A stretch of 20,977 nucleotides of DNA from a candidate division TA06 bacterium SM23_40 (GTDB lineage: Bacteria; LJUI01; SM1-40): positions 1-20,977 of the forward strand of contig LJUI01000035.1 of the NCBI GenBank assembly GCA_001303705.1. The letters run 5' to 3'. Both the position numbers and the translations under genes were made by a program. A model generated the notes under the pieces. The model was not told where the DNA came from, did not search any database, and worked only from the letters and a program-made list of their open reading frames with translations. This document shows positions 300-20,959 of the stretch, in pieces (positions within the stretch are counted from its first letter, which is position 1; the number at the start of each line of letters is the position of its first letter).

Positions 300-1115
300 A
301 TGTTGATACGGTCGCTCATTCGCGCCCTCGTCGCCAGACCTTCGATTCCGAAGGGCCGGCGCCTTCATCCCTTCATCAAGCTCCTGTCGGAGCGGCGCTC
401 GATCAGGCACTTCTTCGATCGCGACATCCCTGACGACGACTTGGATACGATATTAGAAATAGGGCGGTTGTCTCCGAGCACGGCGAATCTCCAGACATGG
501 AGCTTCATCTCGCTTCGAAGAGCGGAGTGGGAGAAGACGTTCGGATCGCCCATCCCGTTCGGAGCCCCTCTGGCAATCGCCGTCTGTGTCGACCTGGACC
601 GCATCCGTCGTGCAGGATTCGAGACTCCCCCATATCCCCTATCGATGTACACGATCGGGCTCATCAATGCCTGTCTCGCAGCAATGAACATGCAGATCGC
701 GGCCCACGCACTGGGATACGGCACCGTCATGGTTTCGGATACGGGAAGGGTGGGATTCATGCATACCCGGTGGGCCCGGGAGCAGCTCGCTCTCCCCCCG
801 GGAGTCTTCCCGGTCTGCACGCTCCTCGTCGGATCGACACGCATGGAGGCACTCCTCATCCCGCCGCGGCTACCGCGCGAACTCGTGGCGATGAAGAGTG
901 CGTACACCGCGCCGGACTCAAAGCTCCTCAATCAATGGTACGAAGAGATGGGTGCCGTCGTCAGGGCACAGAATCCCTTCATGTCGATCCACAGGCGCCT
1001 CGATATGTACCTGAAGGAGCTCCCGCGGGTCGAGGCGGAGCTGGCCCGCCTGGTCTATGGTGACGAATCCGCGCCCCACTCGGTAAGCAGCGCTGGGAAA
1101 GGGGACGATGCCTGA
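300..1115 (+). CDS. Nitroreductase-family FMN-dependent oxidoreductase
   Basis: This 271-residue protein carries the nitroreductase signature near its N-terminus. ERRSIRHF (residues 31-38) is the FMN-phosphate-binding R-R-S-x-R motif. SPSTANLQTWSFI (58-70) corresponds to the (A/S)PS-x-x-N-x-Q-x-W flavin-contacting segment. The glycine-containing second half (AHALGYGTVMVSDTG, about 136-150) also fits. Such enzymes reduce nitro compounds, quinones or flavins with NAD(P)H in the cytoplasm; the substrate cannot be told from sequence. Length is slightly above the usual 180-250, owing to a basic 25-residue N-terminal extension and a long C-terminal helical tail. The ATG at 300 follows GAGAGGAG with good spacing. 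Its end overlaps the next gene by 8 bp, so the two are probably cotranscribed. Confidence 0.9.
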   Translation: MLIRSLIRALVARPSIPKGRRLHPFIKLLSERRSIRHFFDRDIPDDDLDTILEIGRLSPSTANLQTWSFISLRRAEWEKTFGSPIPFGAPLAIAVCVDLDRIRRAGFETPPYPLSMYTIGLINACLAAMNMQIAAHALGYGTVMVSDTGRVGFMHTRWAREQLALPPGVFPVCTLLVGSTRMEALLIPPRLPRELVAMKSAYTAPDSKLLNQWYEEMGAVVRAQNPFMSIHRRLDMYLKELPRVEAELARLVYGDESAPHSVSSAGKGDDA

Positions 1116-3063
1116 ACTCGTCGATCTTGAGGCCGTCCGGGAGGTGCTCGACATAGAGGTCGCCGGCCGCGGCATCGAACATGTCTCGATCACGCACCCG
1201 ATCGCAGTACGGTGTCGGTCTCATCAGTTCTTCAGGGAGCATGTCGAAGGGCGGCGCATTGAGGCAGTCGGGCGACGAGGCAAGTTCCTGTTCATCTCGT
1301 TAGACGATCGCACGGTCATCGTCATCAACCCCATGCTCGCCGGGAGGGTCCAGCTCTGCGCGAAGACCGCACGCCCGCGCAAGAGCACCTGTCTCCAGCT
1401 CACTCTCGATGACGGACGGGAGGTCCGCTACTTCGACGAACGCCAGATGGGGAAGATCTATCTCGCTCTCGACGGCGATTTCTCGGACATCCCCCAGCTC
1501 AATGATCTCGGGCCCGATGCACTCTCGCCTGATCTGACGAAGGAGGGATTCATCGCGCGGATGAAGCGATTCCGGGCGCCGATCAAGTCCGTGCTCACAA
1601 ACCAGCGGTGTCTGGCAGGGATCGGCAACGCCTACGCCGACGAGATCTTGTTCGAGGCGGGCATAAGCCCGCTCCGCCGCAGGGCGAGCCTGAGCCCGGA
1701 GGATCTCGATAGGCTGTACGAGGCGATGCTCCGTGTGTTCCGTACCGCGCTCGAAGAAGTTCGACGCCGCCTGGGCCGCGACATCCATATCGAGCATCGG
1801 GAGTTCATGAAGGTGCACCGACGCGACGCCACCACCTGCCAGCGATGTGGAAATCGGCTGACGGTCATCGGCGGACGCTCCCGCCCCACAGTCTTCTGCC
1901 GCCGATGCCAGCCACGATCGCTCGCCAGCTATCGGTCCGAGTTTCCCATCACCGAGCGCTGCATCTACCTGAACCACGCCTCTACCTCGCCCCTGCCCAA
2001 GCGCAGCCTCGAGGCGATCAACGCGTTCTTCTCGAGCCGACAGGAAAGCGGAGAGCAACGTGACGACCAACACTTCAACGCCCTCCGCGAGACGCGCTCG
2101 CTCCTCGCTCGCCTCATCGAAGGGGATCATCGCCGTCTCGCGCTGACCTTCAATACCTCGACCGGGCTCAACATCGTGGCACAGGGGCTCGACCTCCGGG
2201 GAGGCGATAACGTCGTGGTGGGCGAACGCGAGTTCCCGGCAAATGTCTATCCCTGGCTCCACCTCAGGCGAAAAGGGGTGGAAGTCCGGCTCGTGCCCAT
2301 GCCTGGCGGCCGGCTCGAGGTCGACACGATACGGGAGGCGATCGATCGGCGAACGAGGATCGTGGCGGCGAGCCTGGTCCAGTTCTCGAGCGGGTATCGG
2401 CTCGACGTCGCGGCTCTGGCCGGGCTATGCCATGATCAGGATATCTGGCTTGCCATAGATGGCATGCAGGCCGGAGGTGCGATCGCATTCGAGCCGGACA
2501 GGGAGGGTATCGACTTCTTCGCCTGCGCCGGGGCCAAGTGGCTCATGTCTCCTCAGGGAACGGCCTTCCTGTACTGCTCTGCCGCCGGGCTGGCGGCAAT
2601 CGAGCCAGCGTACATCGGCTGGCTCAGCGTTGCCGGTTCCGAGGACTTCGAGCACCTGCTCGACTTCACCCGCCCGCTGCACGACGACGCGCGAAGGCTC
2701 GAAGTGGGAAGCCTTCCGTACCACGACTTCTACGGAATGCGCGCGTCCGTCGACCTGCTCCTGGAGGTAGGGATAGAGCGCATCGAGGAGGCACGCCTCT
2801 CCCTGACAGATCCCCTGATCGCCTATCTCGAGCGCAGAGGTTTCGGAATCCGCGGCTCCACTGAGCGCGCCCGCCGCTCAGGGATCGTGGCGTTCGAGCA
2901 GACCGATGCTCCCGATCTGGCGAGGCGGCTTGCCCGTAGGGGGATCTATCTGTCCGCCCGTGAGGGCGCGATTCGCGTCGCTCCTCATTTCTACAATACG
3001 CCTGTGGAGATCGAACACCTCATCGCCGCGCTCGACGAGGAGGCCCGGGATGGTCCGAGTTGA
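1108..3063 (+). CDS. Fusion: Fpg/MutM-type DNA glycosylase + class V PLP-dependent aminotransferase
   Basis: This is a single 651-residue frame with two complete-looking enzymes. Residues 1-268 resemble formamidopyrimidine-DNA glycosylase, which removes oxidised bases from DNA. They show N-terminal Pro2-Glu3 (catalytic in the family), the conserved lysine in RRGKFLF, the GIGNAYADE motif of the helix-two-turn-helix, and a zinc finger with Cys244, Cys247, Cys264 and Cys267. Residues from about 274 to 651 resemble class V aminotransferases of the cysteine-desulfurase/isopenicillin-N-epimerase-like group. These show YLNHAS at the start, a TSTGLN phosphate-binding region, Asp451-x-x-Gln454 (AIDGMQ), and the Schiff-base lysine Lys477 (GAKWLMSPQG). 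I see no SufS-type catalytic Cys loop. Start: ATG after GGGAAAGGGG. No in-frame ATG, GTG or TTG lies near the junction, so the second half is unlikely to be made separately. The residue after MPEL is V rather than the usual P. Substrate of the aminotransferase half is unknown. Confidence 0.9.
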   Translation: MPELVDLEAVREVLDIEVAGRGIEHVSITHPIAVRCRSHQFFREHVEGRRIEAVGRRGKFLFISLDDRTVIVINPMLAGRVQLCAKTARPRKSTCLQLTLDDGREVRYFDERQMGKIYLALDGDFSDIPQLNDLGPDALSPDLTKEGFIARMKRFRAPIKSVLTNQRCLAGIGNAYADEILFEAGISPLRRRASLSPEDLDRLYEAMLRVFRTALEEVRRRLGRDIHIEHREFMKVHRRDATTCQRCGNRLTVIGGRSRPTVFCRRCQPRSLASYRSEFPITERCIYLNHASTSPLPKRSLEAINAFFSSRQESGEQRDDQHFNALRETRSLLARLIEGDHRRLALTFNTSTGLNIVAQGLDLRGGDNVVVGEREFPANVYPWLHLRRKGVEVRLVPMPGGRLEVDTIREAIDRRTRIVAASLVQFSSGYRLDVAALAGLCHDQDIWLAIDGMQAGGAIAFEPDREGIDFFACAGAKWLMSPQGTAFLYCSAAGLAAIEPAYIGWLSVAGSEDFEHLLDFTRPLHDDARRLEVGSLPYHDFYGMRASVDLLLEVGIERIEEARLSLTDPLIAYLERRGFGIRGSTERARRSGIVAFEQTDAPDLARRLARRGIYLSAREGAIRVAPHFYNTPVEIEHLIAALDEEARDGPS

Positions 3064-3838: not shown

Positions 3839-5290
3839 CTACCTCCTCCTCTTCCGTACCACCGTAGGATCTATGAGATCCTCCCAGTCAGGATCGAACG
3901 ACTCATCCTCATCGCTGGAGTAGACGAGTTCATACCTCCCGTACCCGGTGCGATCGATAAAGATGTACTGGTCGCCCCCGCGCCCGTAGTACAGCCAGCT
4001 GACATAGGAAGCATAACGGACGTCAGCCGGGTGCCTTTCGATCTCATCCGGCTCCCCGTTCTTTATGTAGATCCGGCCACGATCCGATCTGTGTCCCTTC
4101 TCGAAGCCGGAGGAGAAGTGCTCGTCGGCGTACTCAATGCGCCGGACAAACTCCTCGAGCAGTTCGTTTCGTGGCGTGCCGGGAAGGGGATCGCGATCTT
4201 TCCAGAACTTGACGAGGAACCTCTCTTTCCCCTCCGGGCTCAATGACTCATAGAGAGAGAGCTCGTCGCGGTCCGCGAGGTATTCGATCCGCTCGTACCA
4301 CTCCCCCCCCACCTCCTGCAGCCCCCGCAGCTCGGCGGCGGCATCCCGCTCAGGAGCCTCCTCTTCGCCTTCCTCGGAAAGCGCACGGAGTCCCACATCG
4401 CTGACCGCCTCGACATAGAACGGAGCACTCGCCGTCGCCTCTGTGCCGGACGAGAGGTCTTTGACGACAAGGGAGATAGCATATTCGCCGGCCTCCAGGG
4501 CAACGACATTGACGCCGCCCATCTCTACCGCGCTCTCCCCGGGAGTAGCTTTCCTCTTGGACGGCAGAGTGCGAACCTCCTTCCCCTTCGAGTCACAGAT
4601 CGTATACGCGATACTGAAGCTGTCAGGTATCTCTTCAGTGCCGGTGGTGAGGCCGTAGATTTCGCTGTACCAGTAGAGGATGGGGAATTTGCCCCCGAAC
4701 CGGTGCTCGGGATTCGGCGATATGTACAGGCCATTCTTGACGAACCGACTATCACTCGTATCGGCCTCGGCCTCGATCTTGATCGCGAGCTCCACATCGC
4801 TCACGGCCAGCTCTTCGGATGAGGGCGCCACAGGGACTGTGAGAACAACCTCGCCCGCCTTCTCGCTGGTGAGATCGGTCATGGCCAAGGAGATCTCGTA
4901 CTCGCCCGGGCTCACATTCTCGAGTTCCATCTGGTCCACCATCAGTGGAGCCTGACCCCCGGTCACCTCGTCCGGATCGACGACAGAGAAGTGCCCTTCC
5001 CAGCTGTCGCTCACCGTTGCCTTGGATCCCTTACGTTGTAGCACGAACGATGTACGGAACCGCGCGGTCCACCCGCCATCGTCCTCCTCGACATAACTGA
5101 AATCGGCCACCGGCAAGGTGTAGTAGAGTTCGACGTAACTCTTCCCCCCGCCCATGCGGAAGCGGCCAACATCTATGTGGAAGGTAAGATCGCCCTCGCT
5201 CTCGGCCGGCAGGGCCTGCTCGGACGCGAGAGAAGGGGCTGTACAGAGCGCCGCAATGAGCGCCATACTCACAACTACCGTCCGCTGCAT
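3839..5290 (-). CDS. GWxTD-domain secreted protein (second of a tandem pair)
   Basis: This 483-residue protein has a signal peptide at about 1-23 (hydrophobic [12 protein letters not shown], cleavage near LAS). Beta-rich regions follow to about residue 295, then an acidic linker (305-320). A C-terminal GWxTD-type domain spans about 328-465. The domain shows [15 protein letters not shown] (362-376), RIEYADEHF, and [21 protein letters not shown] (about 399-419). The family motif GWxTD is here GHRSD, so both Trp and Thr are replaced. The C-terminal tail is very acidic and ends in VRKRRR. The family has no assigned reaction that I know of; it is periplasmic or envelope-associated in several uncultured and soil phyla. 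Start: ATG after GGAGGAGAG. It lies 60 bp after the upstream paralogue and 7 bp before the transglycosylase, so the three are very likely one operon. Confidence 0.88.
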
Positions 5291-5350: not shown

Positions 5351-6658
5351 TCAGTACCCCTGGTCAAGGGGGTAGACTAACCTGTATTCGCCGAAGCCCC
5401 GCTCATCGACGAAGATGAACTCTTCTCCCAGCGAATAGTAGTACCAGATCTCGTACGGGTGTGCATCGGGATCGAAGTAGTGGCGCTCGATCTCACTCGG
5501 GTGACCGAACTTGATGTATATGCGGCCCATGTCGCTCCGCCACCCGCCAAAGGGGCCGAGGAAATGGCTATCGGCATAATCGACGCGCCGGAAATACTCC
5601 AGCATCCGCTCATTCCTCTCCGTATTGGGAGTGGGATCGAATTCCTTCCAGAACTCGTTCCACAGCCTGACCCAATCCTCGGGCGGAGCGGATCTCAACC
5701 GCTCCCGCTCCTCGGGGGTGGCGACGTATTCGAGCTGTTCGACCCGTTCTTCATACTCCTCGCGAGAGGCAAAGAACGAGCCGACGACGGAGAACTTCGC
5801 CTCGCCGAACGCAACACGCTGCGTACGTTCGTCCTCCAGTCTGATGCTCAGCGCATACTCTCCCACCCTGAGCCCCTCCAGGGGAACCGTCCCCAACCTC
5901 ACAACCGTACCCTTCACCGCCATCACGCCCCTCGACCTGAGCTGGACGAGGCCGTCGGCATCGATGACGTACCATTCCTCACGCACGTCTCCCGAGTCAT
6001 CGGGTCCCCGATAGATCTCATAGGAGAAGAGGGCTCTCTCATCCGTCTCGTCGTAGCGCCGCTTCGGATATGCCTCCCACCCTTCTCTGCCAGTTGCCAG
6101 GCTCGTCGCCACCTCGTCGCCCGAGAAGATGAGGCCTTCCGACCTGACGAACGTGACGTCGCTCATCTGGAGCGAGCCGAACCCGAGATCCGGCACATGG
6201 AGTTCCTTTTCCACAGTCCCCTCCCGGCTGGAGTGCCGGTCTCGCAGCAACACGCTGAGATGATATTCACCGGGAGCAATGGAGAGCTCGTGCCGGCTTG
6301 TGATGAACCGCGACAGGCGCTGAGTCTGGGCGTACGCCTCGGGCTCCGAGTAGACTGTCCAGATGTCACCCGCCGCTTGATTGCCGGCAGTGTCACGCAG
6401 TATCGCCGACAGATCGTATCCCGCCTGATATGAATCGCCGACGGCGATGAACTGGAGTTGTTCGTAGACAACCGAGACCTCAATCTCCAGCTGCATTCTC
6501 TCGCCTTCGCCCAGGAACACATTCGTTGCCACATCGTACACGAGTGACCCCGACCAGTGAACCTCGTCGTCGGCGACACTCCCTGTCGCCAGGCAGAGAA
6601 GGCAGATCACCGTCGGGGTGAGATGCAACAGGACGCGTCGTGCGAGGCTGTTTCCCAC
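5351..6658 (-). CDS. GWxTD-domain secreted protein (first of a tandem pair)
   Basis: This 435-residue protein starts at GTG 6656-6658. I chose that start because GGAGAGGA lies 7 bases upstream and the first residues form a clean signal peptide (LARR, then a Leu/Ile/Thr-rich core, cleavage near SVA at 27-29). The reading frame extends upstream to 6868, but that part is Arg/Pro/Gly-rich, overlaps the TolC gene and crosses a likely promoter. A beta-rich region covers about 33-295. The GWxTD-type domain (about 300-430) shows NEFWKEFDPTPNTERNE (334-350), RVDYADSHF, then GGWRSDMGRIYIKFGHPSEIER (371-392). The motif reads GWRSD, with Ser for Thr. The aligned order of motifs matches the next gene, so the two are probably ancient paralogues. 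Biochemical role unknown; likely envelope. Confidence 0.88.
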   Translation of the reverse strand: MGNSLARRVLLHLTPTVICLLCLATGSVADDEVHWSGSLVYDVATNVFLGEGERMQLEIEVSVVYEQLQFIAVGDSYQAGYDLSAILRDTAGNQAAGDIWTVYSEPEAYAQTQRLSRFITSRHELSIAPGEYHLSVLLRDRHSSREGTVEKELHVPDLGFGSLQMSDVTFVRSEGLIFSGDEVATSLATGREGWEAYPKRRYDETDERALFSYEIYRGPDDSGDVREEWYVIDADGLVQLRSRGVMAVKGTVVRLGTVPLEGLRVGEYALSIRLEDERTQRVAFGEAKFSVVGSFFASREEYEERVEQLEYVATPEERERLRSAPPEDWVRLWNEFWKEFDPTPNTERNERMLEYFRRVDYADSHFLGPFGGWRSDMGRIYIKFGHPSEIERHYFDPDAHPYEIWYYYSLGEEFIFVDERGFGEYRLVYPLDQGY

Positions 6659-6692
6659 GGCAGAATCCTCTCCGAAATGGCCATTCATATAT

Positions 6693-6721
6693 ACAATAGC
6701 AGAACCAGGGCCCAGGGGCAA
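6693..6721 (-). promoter_or_regulatory. Candidate extended -10 sigma-70-type promoter for the GWxTD/transglycosylase unit
   Basis: On the - strand TTGCCC (6716-6721) and TATTGT (6693-6698) are separated by exactly 17 bases. TGC directly precedes the -10, which matches the TGn extended -10 element. Each hexamer matches 4 of 6 consensus positions. The predicted start near 6686 leaves a leader of about 28 bases before the GTG at 6658, and places the alternative ATG at 6688 at or before the transcript start. Located between the TolC gene and the first GWxTD gene. Confidence 0.45.
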
Positions 6722-6809
6722 GCGAAAAACCCCCGGCCGCCGCCAGCCTGTCGAACTCATCCCTCCCGCGGGCTTGATCCCGCCGCGGGCGCGCCCGATC
6801 CCCGACCGC

Positions 6810-8132
6810 TCAGGGAAGGGGCCCTCCAACCGCACTCTCCAGACGCGCCACGGCGAGGCGCCGGTCATAGACCGCCTCCACTTCCGACGATTCCGCCATG
6901 TTGAGGGCGAGCTGCGCAGTCACCAACTCGAGCGGAGCAGCGGCGCCCAGCCGATACCGCTCCTCAGCCATCCGGTAGTTTTCTCCCGCCTCCTCGCGTG
7001 CCAGCTCCACCACATCGAGACGCTTCGTCGCCTCCTGCACCGCGAGGTACGCGGCCTCAACCTCATACTCGATCGCCAGCACCCTCCTCCGCTTCTCCTG
7101 TCCGAGGAGCGCGCGCTGCGTGGCCGCCCTCGATAGGGCCGACTCACGACGCAATCCGTCAAACAGGGGGAGTTCCGCCCTGATGCCGATGCTCCAGCTG
7201 TCGTTCGCATCCCAGGTGGTCGCATCGTCCGGGAACTCCTCGCCGCTGTAGCTGTAGTCCGCCGTCACAAGGAGGGTCGGCAGGTACGTCGTCCTGGCAG
7301 AGAAGACATTCAGATTTGCCTGATGGAGCGCGGCGTCGACATTGGCGACCTCAGGACGGCGCTCAAACGCCAGATCCTTCAGGGCAGCGAGAACGGGCAC
7401 CTCACGCTGCACAATACCGGGAACCTCCTCTATCTCGACTGGACGATCGAACGGGATGCCCATCGCCCTGACAAGGGATGCCCTCGCCAAGTCGACCGCG
7501 CCTCTCGCAGTGATCAGATCCACCTCGGCCTGCGTCTTCTCCACTTTGATGCTGAGGTAGTCTGCCTTCGACGCCGCTCCCAGTTCGTATAGGGCCTCGG
7601 CATGGGCCAGATTCCCCTCGCTTCGTTCCAGAGCGAGCAGAGCCACATCCTCGAGCGCAATCGCCTTGAGAAGGCCATAGTAGCCCTCGGTCACGGCCAG
7701 GACCACGGCGTTCTCCATCTCGCGGAGCGACGCCCTGCCAGCCGTGACCGCTGCGCCCGCCGAAAAGATGCCCGTCCACCCGGGAAGATCGAGAAGAGGC
7801 TGGCTGAGCGAGAAACGAGTACTGTACGTCTCAGTCGTCACTTCTTCCATGACGCCCGTCGCGGAGATCCGAAAGCTCGGACCAGAACGTGTGTACCCGC
7901 TCGACGCATGAGCGCTCGGGAGCAGCGCCGAGAAGGAGGAGACGAAATCCGCCTGATCGAGGCGGAGATCCTCCTTGGTCTGGGCAAGGTCGGGGCTGTT
8001 TTCGATCGCGACCGCAATACAGTCGGCCAATGAGAGCGGGGATTCATAGACCTCGGTACCGCCTGCCCCCGCACATGACAGCAGGAGGACTACGGCCGCA
8101 GCAGCCCCCGTGCAGAACGAACCTCCTCGCAT
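6810..8132 (-). CDS. TolC-family outer-membrane efflux/secretion channel protein
   Basis: This 440-residue protein has a signal sequence (AAAAVVLLLSCAGAGG) with LLSC as a possible lipobox at about residues 22-25. The mature part has the two-repeat architecture of outer-membrane efflux proteins. Repeat one begins LSLADCIAVAIENSPDLAQTKEDL and continues with long Ala/Glu-rich helices (EALYELGAASKADYLSIKVE). Repeat two starts near RPEVANVDAALHQANLNV and ends RYRLGAAAPLELVTAQLALNMAE. Family members form trimeric channels across the outer membrane for efflux pumps or type I secretion. Start: ATG 8130-8132, preceded by AAAGGAGG. An ATG six codons upstream (8150) is rejected because the Shine-Dalgarno lies inside that extension. 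No membrane-fusion protein or inner-membrane pump gene is adjacent, so the partner is unknown. Confidence 0.9.
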   Translation of the reverse strand: MRGGSFCTGAAAAVVLLLSCAGAGGTEVYESPLSLADCIAVAIENSPDLAQTKEDLRLDQADFVSSFSALLPSAHASSGYTRSGPSFRISATGVMEEVTTETYSTRFSLSQPLLDLPGWTGIFSAGAAVTAGRASLREMENAVVLAVTEGYYGLLKAIALEDVALLALERSEGNLAHAEALYELGAASKADYLSIKVEKTQAEVDLITARGAVDLARASLVRAMGIPFDRPVEIEEVPGIVQREVPVLAALKDLAFERRPEVANVDAALHQANLNVFSARTTYLPTLLVTADYSYSGEEFPDDATTWDANDSWSIGIRAELPLFDGLRRESALSRAATQRALLGQEKRRRVLAIEYEVEAAYLAVQEATKRLDVVELAREEAGENYRMAEERYRLGAAAPLELVTAQLALNMAESSEVEAVYDRRLAVARLESAVGGPLP

Positions 8133-18023: not shown

Positions 18024-18434
18024 TCAGTCGCTGCAACTGCTCCACTCCTGGTGGCTCCGGTCCAGATCTCGCCAGTAATTAACCTCGAACTCCCGTTCGA
18101 AGTCGAAGACATCTGTGAAGTCCTCTTTTCGGTCCTCAGTTCTCTTGCTCAGGATTCCGGCGTCGATGAGATCGAAGACGATCTCACCGAAATCGTCCGT
18201 CCTCGTCACCCCCCAGTATGAGAAGACGGTCTTTGCGAGCGGCCCATATGACTCCAGGGCCAGTCGTCTCACGCCATCGAGCAGTTCCTGGCCGCTCACA
18301 TGGCGCCTCTCGCCCACCTGCTCAAGCGTGTACTCCAGCCCCTGAAGAAGAAACTCGTACGCCGCAGGTGCGTACCGTCCCTTCTCCAGAGCCACTCTCT
18401 CGATGGTATTCCTTATGGGTTCTGCCACACTCAT
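18024..18434 (-). CDS. Minf_1886-family conserved protein
   Basis: This 136-residue protein matches what I know of the uncharacterised Minf_1886 family. It shows GRYAPAAYEFLLQGLEYT near the N-terminus, HVSGQELLDGVRRLALESYGPLA, then SYWGVTRTDDFGEIVFDLIDAGILSK and EDFTDVFDFEREFEV. These blocks are strongly conserved across several phyla, but no reaction has been assigned to my knowledge. No signal peptide or membrane segment; cytoplasmic. Start: ATG 18432-18434, preceded by GGAGGG at 6 bases; an in-frame ATG at 18476 is rejected because it would place the promoter -10 next to the start codon. It is the first gene after its own promoter and precedes the 78-residue hypothetical by 30 bp. Confidence 0.85.
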   Translation of the reverse strand: MSVAEPIRNTIERVALEKGRYAPAAYEFLLQGLEYTLEQVGERRHVSGQELLDGVRRLALESYGPLAKTVFSYWGVTRTDDFGEIVFDLIDAGILSKRTEDRKEDFTDVFDFEREFEVNYWRDLDRSHQEWSSCSD

Positions 18435-18476
18435 TCTATCCCTCCATGAGCCAGGTGCCGTTGCTCCACACATCAC

Positions 18477-18505
18477 AATCTAGCACCCTGCAGACCATCT
18501 GACAA
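18477..18505 (-). promoter_or_regulatory. Candidate extended -10 sigma-70-type promoter for the Minf_1886-family gene
   Basis: On the - strand TTGTCA (18500-18505; 5 of 6) and TAGATT (18477-18482; 4 of 6) are separated by 17 bases, and TGC precedes the -10 as an extended element. It follows the terminator of the upstream gene immediately; the -35 overlaps the end of the U-rich tract. Start of transcription near 18470, leader about 36 bases. It probably also serves the downstream small gene, DUF62, hsp20 and lon, since I found no other promoter before lon. Confidence 0.6.
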
Positions 18506-18532
18506 GGGAAAAGTCGCCCTGGGAGGCGACTT
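18504..18532 (-). terminator. Intrinsic terminator after the degenerate GGDEF-like gene
   Basis: AAGTCGCC and GGCGACTT form a perfect 8-bp stem with a 6-base loop (18511-18532), followed on the - strand by TTCCCTT, so the U-tract reads TTTTCCCTT including the stem's last bases. It lies about 80 bases after the stop at 18613. It separates the sigma-54-driven gene from the unit that follows. Confidence 0.75.
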
Positions 18533-18612: not shown

Positions 18613-19107
18613 CTACCTGGGCGACCCGGCATCACCACACTCAGAGTAGATGTAGATCTCTTCTTCGCCGTGGTGTCTGACGAGGGACCCGAGAACGTCG
18701 ACATTATCCAGGAGTTCATCGCCGCTCGACCCATCGACCGGGTACGAGGTGATCAGCGCCCGCGACTGGAGTTGGCAGGACGCCTCCCTGCCCGATCCTG
18801 AGACCCTGTACGGCCCCACATGCTCCTGCATGCGCCGGGCAACGACGAGTGCCCCCTCCTCAGGTGTCTCCGGCAGGATGAAAAAGAGAACACCACTGCG
18901 CGTCTCCTGGAGGTGGTCAGTACGCCGTATGTCCCCCCTCATCACGCTTCTGAGGATCGAAAACGCACCGACAAAACCGGCGCTCTCCGAATCTCCGTTC
19001 ATGACATGAAGGACAAGCACCGAGAGGAAGTGCCCATACCGCTCAGCACGCAGCACCTCCTCGTTGAGCCTCCGTCGCACCACAGCTGTGTGCAGCCCCT
19101 GATTCAA
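18613..19107 (-). CDS. Degenerate GGDEF-like domain protein (no GGDEF signature)
   Basis: This 164-residue cytoplasmic protein resembles a lone diguanylate-cyclase fold. RRRLNEEVLRAERYGHFLSVLVLHV matches the first helix and strand (usual form F-x-x-E-L-x-R-A-x-R-Y-x-x-P-L-S-L-L). SVMRGDIRRTDHL fits the next helix, and GVLFFILPETPEEGALVVARRM fits the strand and helix after the active site. SYPVDGSSGDELLDNVD fits the C-terminal segment. Where GG(D/E)EF should be, the sequence reads TRSGVLFF, so catalysis is not expected; a binding or scaffolding role is inference. Start: TTG 19105-19107 after GAGGG; the frame is open upstream to a stop near 19180 with no ATG or GTG, and the next ATG would delete the conserved first helix. 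It has its own sigma-54 promoter and terminator, so it is probably a single-gene transcript. Confidence 0.75.
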   Translation of the reverse strand: MNQGLHTAVVRRRLNEEVLRAERYGHFLSVLVLHVMNGDSESAGFVGAFSILRSVMRGDIRRTDHLQETRSGVLFFILPETPEEGALVVARRMQEHVGPYRVSGSGREASCQLQSRALITSYPVDGSSGDELLDNVDVLGSLVRHHGEEEIYIYSECGDAGSPR

Positions 19108-19205
19108 CTCATATCCCTCTTCTGAATGGTCACCGTTCCCTGCGATCCTGGATCCGTCACCTCTTCGGCGCGGCAGCCAGGGTACATCTCATGGCCTCAC
19201 ATAAA

Positions 19206-19221
19206 AGCAATAACCGTGCCA
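19206..19221 (-). promoter_or_regulatory. Sigma-54 (RpoN) -24/-12 promoter
   Basis: The - strand reads TGGCACGGTTATTGCT, which matches the sigma-54 consensus TGGCACG-N4-TTGC(A/T) at every defined position with correct spacing. C precedes the first T (consensus Y) and TTT follows. Start of transcription is expected near 19195, about 88 bases before the TTG of the GGDEF-like gene. It lies 186 bases past the end of the sigma-54 activator gene on the same strand. The 299-base gap 19108-19406 holds this site, two palindromes and nothing else I can name. Confidence 0.85.
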
Positions 19222-19316
19222 GACAATCTCACGCGATGCCGCAAGCCGTACGGCTAAGACGTTGGTAGCCCGTCAGTTCACCACGTCGCTTCCAGCCCCT
19301 TGTCCAGCCCCCCTCC

Positions 19317-19328
19317 CGGTGCGCACCG
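19317..19328. promoter_or_regulatory. Palindrome, candidate activator-binding site upstream of the sigma-54 promoter
   Basis: CGGTGCGCACCG is a perfect 12-bp palindrome centred about 127 bases upstream of the predicted sigma-54 transcription start, a usual distance for an enhancer-type site of an NtrC-family regulator. A second, shorter palindrome, GCGATATCGC, lies at 19378-19387. Only the symmetry and position support the role; no second copy of the same site was found. Confidence 0.35.
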
Positions 19329-19406
19329 ATGTTACCAATCATTGCATCTTTCTGCACAACCTCTGAGACAAGCCGCAGCGATATCGCAGCGACCGGCGGC
19401 GGCATA

Positions 19407-20840
19407 TCATTCGGCAGTTGTGATCCCGTATTCCTTGATCTTGTCGAGCAGAGAGCGATAGCTGATTCCCAACAGACGGGCAGCCCTGGTCCTGTTCCAG
19501 TTCGTCCGCCTGAGCGCCTCCCGTATCAGGGGAATCTCCGCCTCGACAGCCGCCCTCCGACTCACCTCCTTCAGAGAGAGCGAGAGCTCCTGCTGGCGTG
19601 TCGGCCTGTGGGGCTCCTCTTCCGCGGATCCGCCGGAATGGCGGAACGGCTCAGGCATCAGACTCTCAGCAATGATCTCCTCGGTTCCGAAGACAATCAT
19701 CTTCTTCATCAGACTCTCCAGTTCCCGCACGTTGCCGGGCCAGGTATGGGCCACAAGCGTATCCATGGTCTCTTTTGAAGGGAACTGAATCTCCTTGCCG
19801 TATTGATCGCCGTACACCCGGAGGAAGTGACCGACGAGGAGCGGGACATCCTCTCGCCGTTCTCTCAAGGGCGGGATTTCGATCATCACCTCGTTGATTC
19901 GATAGTAGAGATCTTCTCTGAATCGCCTCCGGGCCATCTCTTGCTGAAGATTGCGGTTTGTGGAGGCAACGATGCGCACGTCCACACGGATCGTCTTCTT
20001 ACCTCCGAGCCTCATGAATTCCCGGTGCTCCAGTACCTGCAGCAACTTCGACTGTAACGCAATGGGCACTTCCGCTATCTCATCGAGAAAGATGCTCCCG
20101 CGATGGGCGTACTCAAATCGGCCAGGCTTGGTGTGATATGCACTGGTGAAGGCCCCCCGCTCGTACCCGAACAACTCGGCCTCGAGGAGTTCGCCGGGAA
20201 GCGCAGCACAGTTGACCTTGATGAACGGCTTAGTCGCGCGCCTCGACATGCTGTGAAGCGCCCGGGCCGCCAGCTCCTTGCCGGTCCCGCTCTCTCCCCG
20301 TATGAGGACCGTCAATCCGCTGTCAGCCACCTGCTCGATCGTCCGCTTCACCTGGCGTATGCCCGGACTATCGCCGATGATGCTCTCGTCGATCGAGCGG
20401 ATCCCGATCTCGGTCCTCAACTGAGCGAGCTCGCGTGTCAACGCCTTCCGTTCCAGAACCTTCGACAGAACGATTTTCAGTTCATCGATCTCAAACGGTT
20501 TGTTGACGAAGTCCGATGCTCCGAGCTGCATCGCCCTGACAACCGTCTTTGTCTTCCCGAAGCCTGAGATCATGATGACATCAGTGCTCTCATCTATTTC
20601 CTTGACCTTCTTCAGAGTCTCGAGTCCATCCATCCCTGGCATTCGGAAATCGAGGAATACGACGTCGGGTGCGTGCTTGCGTACGCTCTTCAGCGCCCGC
20701 GCCCCGCTCTCAGCGGTTATGACGTGGTACCCTTCGCCCTCGAGCTCCTCGCGCACCATCCAGCAGAGTTGAGGGTCGTCGTCCACAACGAGCACTGTGG
20801 GCGCATCGTCCGTCACGGTATCCACATCCCTCTTCCTCAT
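19407..20840 (-). CDS. NtrC-family response regulator, sigma-54-dependent transcriptional activator
   Basis: This protein is 477 residues from ATG 20838-20840. The receiver domain (about 14-130) has acidic Asp20-Asp22, phosphoacceptor Asp64 in FLDFRMPGMDG and Lys114 in NKPFE. The AAA+ domain (about 150-390) has Walker A GESGTGKE (182-189), a GAFTSA loop (229-234) where the family has GAFTGA, and Walker B SIFLDEI (249-255). A Fis-type helix-turn-helix ends it (NRTRAARLLGISYRSLLDKIKEYGI). When phosphorylated such proteins drive open-complex formation by RNA polymerase-sigma-54. Start: GGAGG lies 11 bases upstream of 20840; an in-frame ATG at 20885 adds 15 residues and cannot be excluded. The likely target is the sigma-54 promoter directly downstream. 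Its histidine kinase is not visible in the window. Confidence 0.93.
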   Translation of the reverse strand: MRKRDVDTVTDDAPTVLVVDDDPQLCWMVREELEGEGYHVITAESGARALKSVRKHAPDVVFLDFRMPGMDGLETLKKVKEIDESTDVIMISGFGKTKTVVRAMQLGASDFVNKPFEIDELKIVLSKVLERKALTRELAQLRTEIGIRSIDESIIGDSPGIRQVKRTIEQVADSGLTVLIRGESGTGKELAARALHSMSRRATKPFIKVNCAALPGELLEAELFGYERGAFTSAYHTKPGRFEYAHRGSIFLDEIAEVPIALQSKLLQVLEHREFMRLGGKKTIRVDVRIVASTNRNLQQEMARRRFREDLYYRINEVMIEIPPLRERREDVPLLVGHFLRVYGDQYGKEIQFPSKETMDTLVAHTWPGNVRELESLMKKMIVFGTEEIIAESLMPEPFRHSGGSAEEEPHRPTRQQELSLSLKEVSRRAAVEAEIPLIREALRRTNWNRTRAARLLGISYRSLLDKIKEYGITTAE

Positions 20841-20959
20841 GCGACCGATCGCCTCCGGGATTGACCGCTCCCCCCCGCTCGTCATCCTTCAAGCGGCAGT
20901 CGGATGTGACCACCCTCGATCCAGTGGCACGACGGCGGGGCGATGTGTCCCACTTTCAT

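Follow-up and report, generated by a model that had tools for sequence, protein, structure and literature searches.

Introduction

Biofilm polysaccharide is under the control of c-di-GMP. Bacteria also place surface genes under sigma-54 two-component control, as is already established in sections of two published studies (PMC3162934, PMC1569441). The described system closest to the locus treated here is PrsK/PrsR, the two-component system found in bacteria with PEP-CTERM proteins and exosortase (Haft 2006, PMC1569441; NCBIfam TIGR02916 and TIGR02915), with which the genes described below have several traits in common: an NtrC-type regulator, surface-protein genes preceded by sigma-54 promoters that have an activator site upstream, and exopolysaccharide genes as neighbours. 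We looked for a small GGDEF-like partner in the paper on PrsK/PrsR, from which the term GGDEF is absent. Degenerate GGDEF proteins of the PelD type are known as c-di-GMP receptors in P. aeruginosa and B. cereus (PMC7112168).

Two further lines of work bear on the locus. Sections of a study of the Desulfovibrio vulgaris regulome (PMC4641369) describe activator genes co-localised with sigma-54 promoters, as here, and tolerance of variants in the activator loop, and sections of PMC3162934 present sigma-54 as a controller of the cell exterior, with exterior and polysaccharide genes as its targets, much as in the genomes compared below. A degenerate GGDEF protein as the target of a sigma-54 activator was not found described in those sections, nor was a conserved pairing of the two found in the open-access literature we searched.

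Here we analyse a locus in which the gene for an NtrC-family activator is followed by a -24/-12 promoter and by a gene for a small protein that has lost the GGDEF signature. Comparison with other genomes leads us to regard it, on balance, as a probable member of a conserved, previously undescribed two-gene module.

Results

The locus and its surroundings

The window, by which we mean the whole stretch of 20,977 nucleotides that was analysed, is the entire contig C136 of the genome under study, G000 (2.88 Mb in 189 contigs, 89.8% complete). On its minus strand the activator gene is followed, after a gap of 299 bp, by a gene of 164 codons. The features of the locus are these:

19407..20885, minus strand: NtrC-family sigma-54 activator with a receiver, an AAA+ domain (loop GAFTSA) and a Fis-type HTH, NWNRTRAARLLGISYRSLLDKIKEYGI; assigned by Pfam domains and by 49-50% identity to homologues
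19378..19387, strand not applicable: palindrome GCGATATCGC of 10 bp, within a direct repeat close behind the activator stop
19317..19328, strand not applicable: perfect 12-bp palindrome CGGTGCGCACCG, with its centre about 101 bp ahead of the promoter TGG; candidate enhancer
19244..19255, strand not applicable: second perfect 12-bp palindrome AGCCGTACGGCT, ending 22 bp upstream of the TGG
19206..19221, minus strand (read 19221-19206): -24/-12 promoter TGGCACGGTTATTGCT, matching at 12 of 12 defined positions
18613..19107, minus strand: degenerate GGDEF-domain protein of 164 aa, TTG start, with RSGVL for GGDEF and RRTD kept; assigned by Pfam, fold and paralogue
about 18503..18532, minus strand: terminator-like hairpin AAGTCGCC-TCCCAG-GGCGACTT, then TTTT/CCC; -14 kcal/mol, z -3.2

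Directly behind the hairpin lies a minus-strand gene (18024-18476) for a Minf_1886-family protein (TIGR04138) of unknown function, which is outside the module conserved elsewhere. In other parts of the window, a plus-strand frame of 651 aa (1108-3063) resembles a formamidopyrimidine-DNA glycosylase joined with a class-V aminotransferase, an apparent fusion that is possibly an assembly artefact, and two tandem minus-strand proteins (3839-5290 and 5351-6868) carry repeated GRIYIKxGxPDEIERH motifs and resemble GWxTD-domain proteins. A search of phage families gave no match.

The activator

The activator has 492 aa, with a start at 20885 or at an ATG at 20840, and its Response_reg, Sigma54_activat, AAA lid and HTH_8 domains all score over the Pfam cut-offs, which bears out the NtrC-family assignment of the preliminary description. 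Its sigma-54 contact loop reads GAFTSA rather than GAFTGA, with the F and the T kept. The fifth-position variants GAFTDA and GAFTHA are regarded as functional in Desulfovibrio in the relevant sections of PMC4641369; of GAFTSA itself we found no mention in the papers searched. G000 encodes a second GAFTSA-loop activator with a similar HTH (L097, C37:6109-7527), which adjoins Poly_export and Wzz genes and has no clear -24/-12 site behind its gene. Assignment of the window activator to PrsR was ruled out by its score (408.3 bits against a TIGR02915 cut-off of 502.6), and assignment to AtoC or NtrC by scores under every cut-off.

The promoter and the activator-then-site layout

The sequence TGGCACGGTTATTGCT, which stands 185 bp past the activator stop and 99 bp ahead of the start codon of the 164-aa gene, agrees with the consensus TGGCACG-N4-TTGCW at all 12 defined positions; a window-wide scan allowing one mismatch is expected to return 0.08 matches by chance. 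The full-consensus promoter reported earlier therefore stands, and rpoN, without which the earlier reading would not hold, was found in G000. Across the 2.88-Mb genome we counted 10 exact sites; when up to one mismatch was allowed the count was 41, against 20 for the reversed control.

Full sigma-54 activators number 18 in G000, among 24 Sigma54_activat matches. Nine of the 18 have a same-strand site matching at 11 or more of the 12 positions, 145-443 bp past the stop codon (P ~2e-18 at the site density of G000); they lie on C65, C62, C4, C63, C88, C96, C33, C166 and C136. The genes behind these sites include those for two HD-GYP proteins, two receiver proteins, a pilin-like protein, a glutamate dehydrogenase, an FG-GAP/CBM96 protein and one unknown. 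G000 is thus a genome with many activator-then-target cascades, several of them ahead of other signalling proteins (HD-GYP, receivers). In Desulfovibrio, by contrast, sections of PMC4641369 describe such a promoter behind the gene for only one of the one-component activators. The arrangement had been called unusual when the locus was first described, a view that does not survive its presence behind half of the activators of this genome and the conservation of the gene pair elsewhere. On C63 (L092), an activator has as neighbours several pilin-like genes and one that resembles a prepilin peptidase, each behind a -24/-12 site of its own, a set that reads as a PilR-like pilus regulon.

Because the promoter is exact, rpoN is present, the layout recurs behind nine of 18 activators, and homologous pairs in other lineages carry the site as well, it is very probable that the activator switches on the gene downstream of it, as the preliminary description had proposed.

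The small degenerate GGDEF protein

The 164-aa protein matches the Pfam GGDEF family with an E-value of 0.016, short of the cut-off. Its fold model is of moderate quality (pLDDT 63.5, pTM 0.61), because only a thin alignment without the family members of other genomes was used to build it; the Foldseek matches listed are to structures of GGDEF domains or of proteins that contain one. Contig C15 of G000 encodes a paralogue that is 34% identical to the window protein. Fold, paralogue, and the RSGVL and RRTD motifs agree with the earlier view of this neighbour as a degenerate GGDEF-like protein. Because GGDEF is replaced by RSGVL, the protein is, judged by its sequence, no diguanylate cyclase. 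Elsewhere G000 encodes intact GGDEF/GGEEF domains, at least four in number.

The small proteins of the family have 160-210 aa. With the C15 paralogue included, GGDEF is lost in 12 of 12 members and RxxD is kept in 12 of 12. Since RxxD is ancestral in GGDEF domains, occurring in 96 of 97 canonical GGDEF stretches, its retention is a weak indication of ligand binding. The C15 paralogue is encoded directly behind an exopolysaccharide sugar transferase and not beside an activator, and a one-mismatch -24/-12 site (C15:3640-3625) stands ahead of the two genes. The sugar transferase at this locus (L102:2213-3513, on C15) has RRNG repeats within an unusual stretch of charged residues.

The same gene pair in other genomes

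We searched a profile of the two paralogues in 386 genomes and then within the phyla of the matches, where phylum and phylum-level lineage denote the groupings given by the genome collection used. The profile matched 65 genomes, most of them with ordinary long GGDEF proteins instead of the small family; contig scans of other genomes found no orthologue in one scan and ordinary GGDEF proteins only in another. Modules in which an activator is followed by a small protein that has lost GGDEF and kept RxxD were recovered 11 times, in 10 genomes of four phylum-level lineages: G000; G265, G386, G387 and G388, which form one family; G087, with two copies; and G274, G136, G394 and G395 of one phylum. 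The window activator is 50% identical to the module activator of G265 and 49% to that of G087. The reading frames of the small proteins are intact, with conserved residues, in the 10 genomes. An exopolysaccharide sugar transferase adjoins the G087 module, behind a -24/-12-like site.

Between the two genes, eight of the 11 modules carry a site that matches at 11-12 of the 12 positions (TGGCAYR allowed); shuffles for these sites, as for the palindromes of the window and its best match to the relatives' dyad, were mononucleotide shuffles. The promoter in G087 is 452 bp from the annotated start of the small gene. The other three modules, with gaps of 26, 33 and 161 bp, have no site between the genes, and their small genes may be transcribed together with the activator. 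Homologous pairs with a -24/-12 site occur in three phylum-level lineages other than that of G000. The promoter of the G265 family, TGGCATTTATTTTGCA (TGGCATTTAATTTGCA in G388), forms a conserved island within diverged DNA, and G394 and G395 share a block of 25 bases around the site in which two positions differ. The site, whose alignment across relatives had been suggested with the original observation, is by these comparisons conserved in six genomes of two other lineages (the G265 family; G394/G395), in a set covering lineages outside the phylum of G000, the closest genome compared with G000 being of the same domain.

Dyads and surface genes in relatives

Two dyads of the form AATTATGAA-N6-TTCATAATT, spaced 20 bp apart, are found in the G265 family just behind the activator stop and 143-156 bp from the promoter. 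Counts of this dyad against the reversed control were 34 to 11, 20 to 3 and 12 to 2 in three of the four genomes of the family, and 20 to 22 in G388. At seven of 10 other dyad places examined, a subset of all dyad matches in the family, a -24/-12 site lies 114-230 bp downstream, where about 0.08 would be expected at each. The targets that could be read have N-terminal signal-like stretches, as judged by eye, and one dyad-linked gene shares its contig with exopolysaccharide genes and an exosortase. Because the dyad also stands upstream of other -24/-12 sites ahead of secreted proteins, we conclude that the activator of the G265 family appears to serve a surface regulon of which the small gene is one member.

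The link with PrsK/PrsR is most direct in G274, whose module contains a genuine PrsK and PrsR over the NCBIfam cut-offs (PrsR 590.1 bits against 502.6) with the small GGDEF-like gene directly behind them. In G274 and G136 (L139 and L141), PrsK-PrsR and the small GGDEF-like gene are followed by a tandem series of PEP-CTERM genes, each of which has a -24/-12 site. An exosortase is present in seven of the 10 module genomes, against one of 14 control genomes (an archaeon). Searches for an exosortase found none in G000 (about 90% complete) or G274 (90% complete); G136 has one. The window activator thus differs from PrsR in falling under its cut-off, in its type of HTH and in a genome where no exosortase was found.

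Palindromes and hairpin at the locus

In the 185 bp upstream of the promoter there are three perfect palindromes, two of 12 bp and one of 10 bp, against 0.05 (12 bp or longer) and 0.19 (10 bp or longer) expected from shuffles, a comparison picked post hoc. The palindrome noted earlier at 19317-19328 is present, and CGGTGCGCACCG occurs once in G000. Its recurrence near other -24/-12 sites of the genome, which had been put forward as a check, was not found, and with a single copy it is ruled out as the mark of a regulon. It is also unlike the tandem dyad of the G265 family, which is absent from the window (best match 9 of 18, as in shuffles), and no dyad common to the window promoter and 22 other sigma-54 promoters of G000 rose above shuffles. 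Of the intrinsic terminator that had been placed at 18504-18532, the strong hairpin is confirmed; its T run is short (TTTT), and the terminator consensus scan left it unlisted.

Discussion

We consider it reasonably likely that the pair belongs to a sigma-54 system that regulates surface and exopolysaccharide genes and has as its effector an unnamed, non-catalytic GGDEF protein, which is perhaps a receptor for c-di-GMP. A phosphorylated NtrC-family two-component activator would open sigma-54 RNA polymerase at the -24/-12 promoter behind its own gene, and the output of that promoter would be a small GGDEF protein of one domain that is catalytically dead. In relatives, the activator would also switch on other genes, chiefly for secreted or PEP-CTERM proteins, beside exopolysaccharide genes. 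Because the relatives' activator is predicted to act on such genes, the small protein is most plausibly an effector or adaptor co-produced with the surface programme, presumably in this organism as well; it would most likely sense c-di-GMP through RxxD or, like PelD in Pel export, bind a partner enzyme.

The likeness to PelD lies in the lost GGDEF signature, the kept RxxD and, in some members, an exopolysaccharide setting. PelD, however, is a multidomain protein encoded in the pel operon, whereas the small protein consists of one short domain and is encoded next to a sigma-54 activator, and its binding of c-di-GMP is putative.

Another plausible reading, to which we give about one chance in three, is that the small protein binds no nucleotide and acts as an adaptor or inhibitor of protein partners (the kinase, the activator or an enzyme), with feedback on its own system. 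The loss of the active-site signature in every family member would fit this, as would the production of the small protein by or beside an activator in every module, and the kept RxxD, so common in canonical domains, is possibly structural only. The partner protein is still putative, however, and the C15 paralogue stands beside a sugar transferase without an activator.

It is unlikely that the activator and its neighbour form a closed, dedicated circuit in which the activator controls only the adjoining GGDEF-like gene, by way of the palindrome at 19317-19328. The hairpin behind a monocistronic target, the single genomic copy of the palindrome and the want of a dyad shared above shuffles with other sigma-54 promoters of G000 are what such a circuit would lead one to expect. 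Yet non-recurrence of the palindrome, which is only a candidate enhancer, says little, and its lone perfect form differs from the tandem dyads of the G265 family. There, the activator dyad also precedes several other sigma-54 promoters, for secreted proteins, which tells against the terms self-contained and dedicated used in the preliminary description. The activator probably has targets beyond its neighbour.

A bolder and somewhat less probable proposal, which we rate as doubtful, is that the small degenerate GGDEF proteins might form a novel class of co-regulators, which would read c-di-GMP and feed back on the sigma-54 activator or kinase of their own system. If this were true, a c-di-GMP signal would gate an entire sigma-54 surface regulon, and would do so in several phyla. 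Least probable is a chance or relict -24/-12 match with a decaying diguanylate cyclase gene read through from the activator gene, which could draw on the three site-less modules (two with gaps of 26-33 bp) and on the sub-threshold Pfam match, but has against it the 12/12 site, the strong enrichment of such sites behind activators, their conservation in six genomes of two other lineages, and intact frames with conserved residues in 10 genomes.

What appeared at first reading to be an odd arrangement is a repeated design. With a recognisable promoter across distant lineages, and an enhancer in one family, the regulon becomes predictable from sequence. The conserved GGDEF-like partner, unnamed in the papers we found, could join sigma-54 control of the cell exterior and c-di-GMP at the level of one gene pair.
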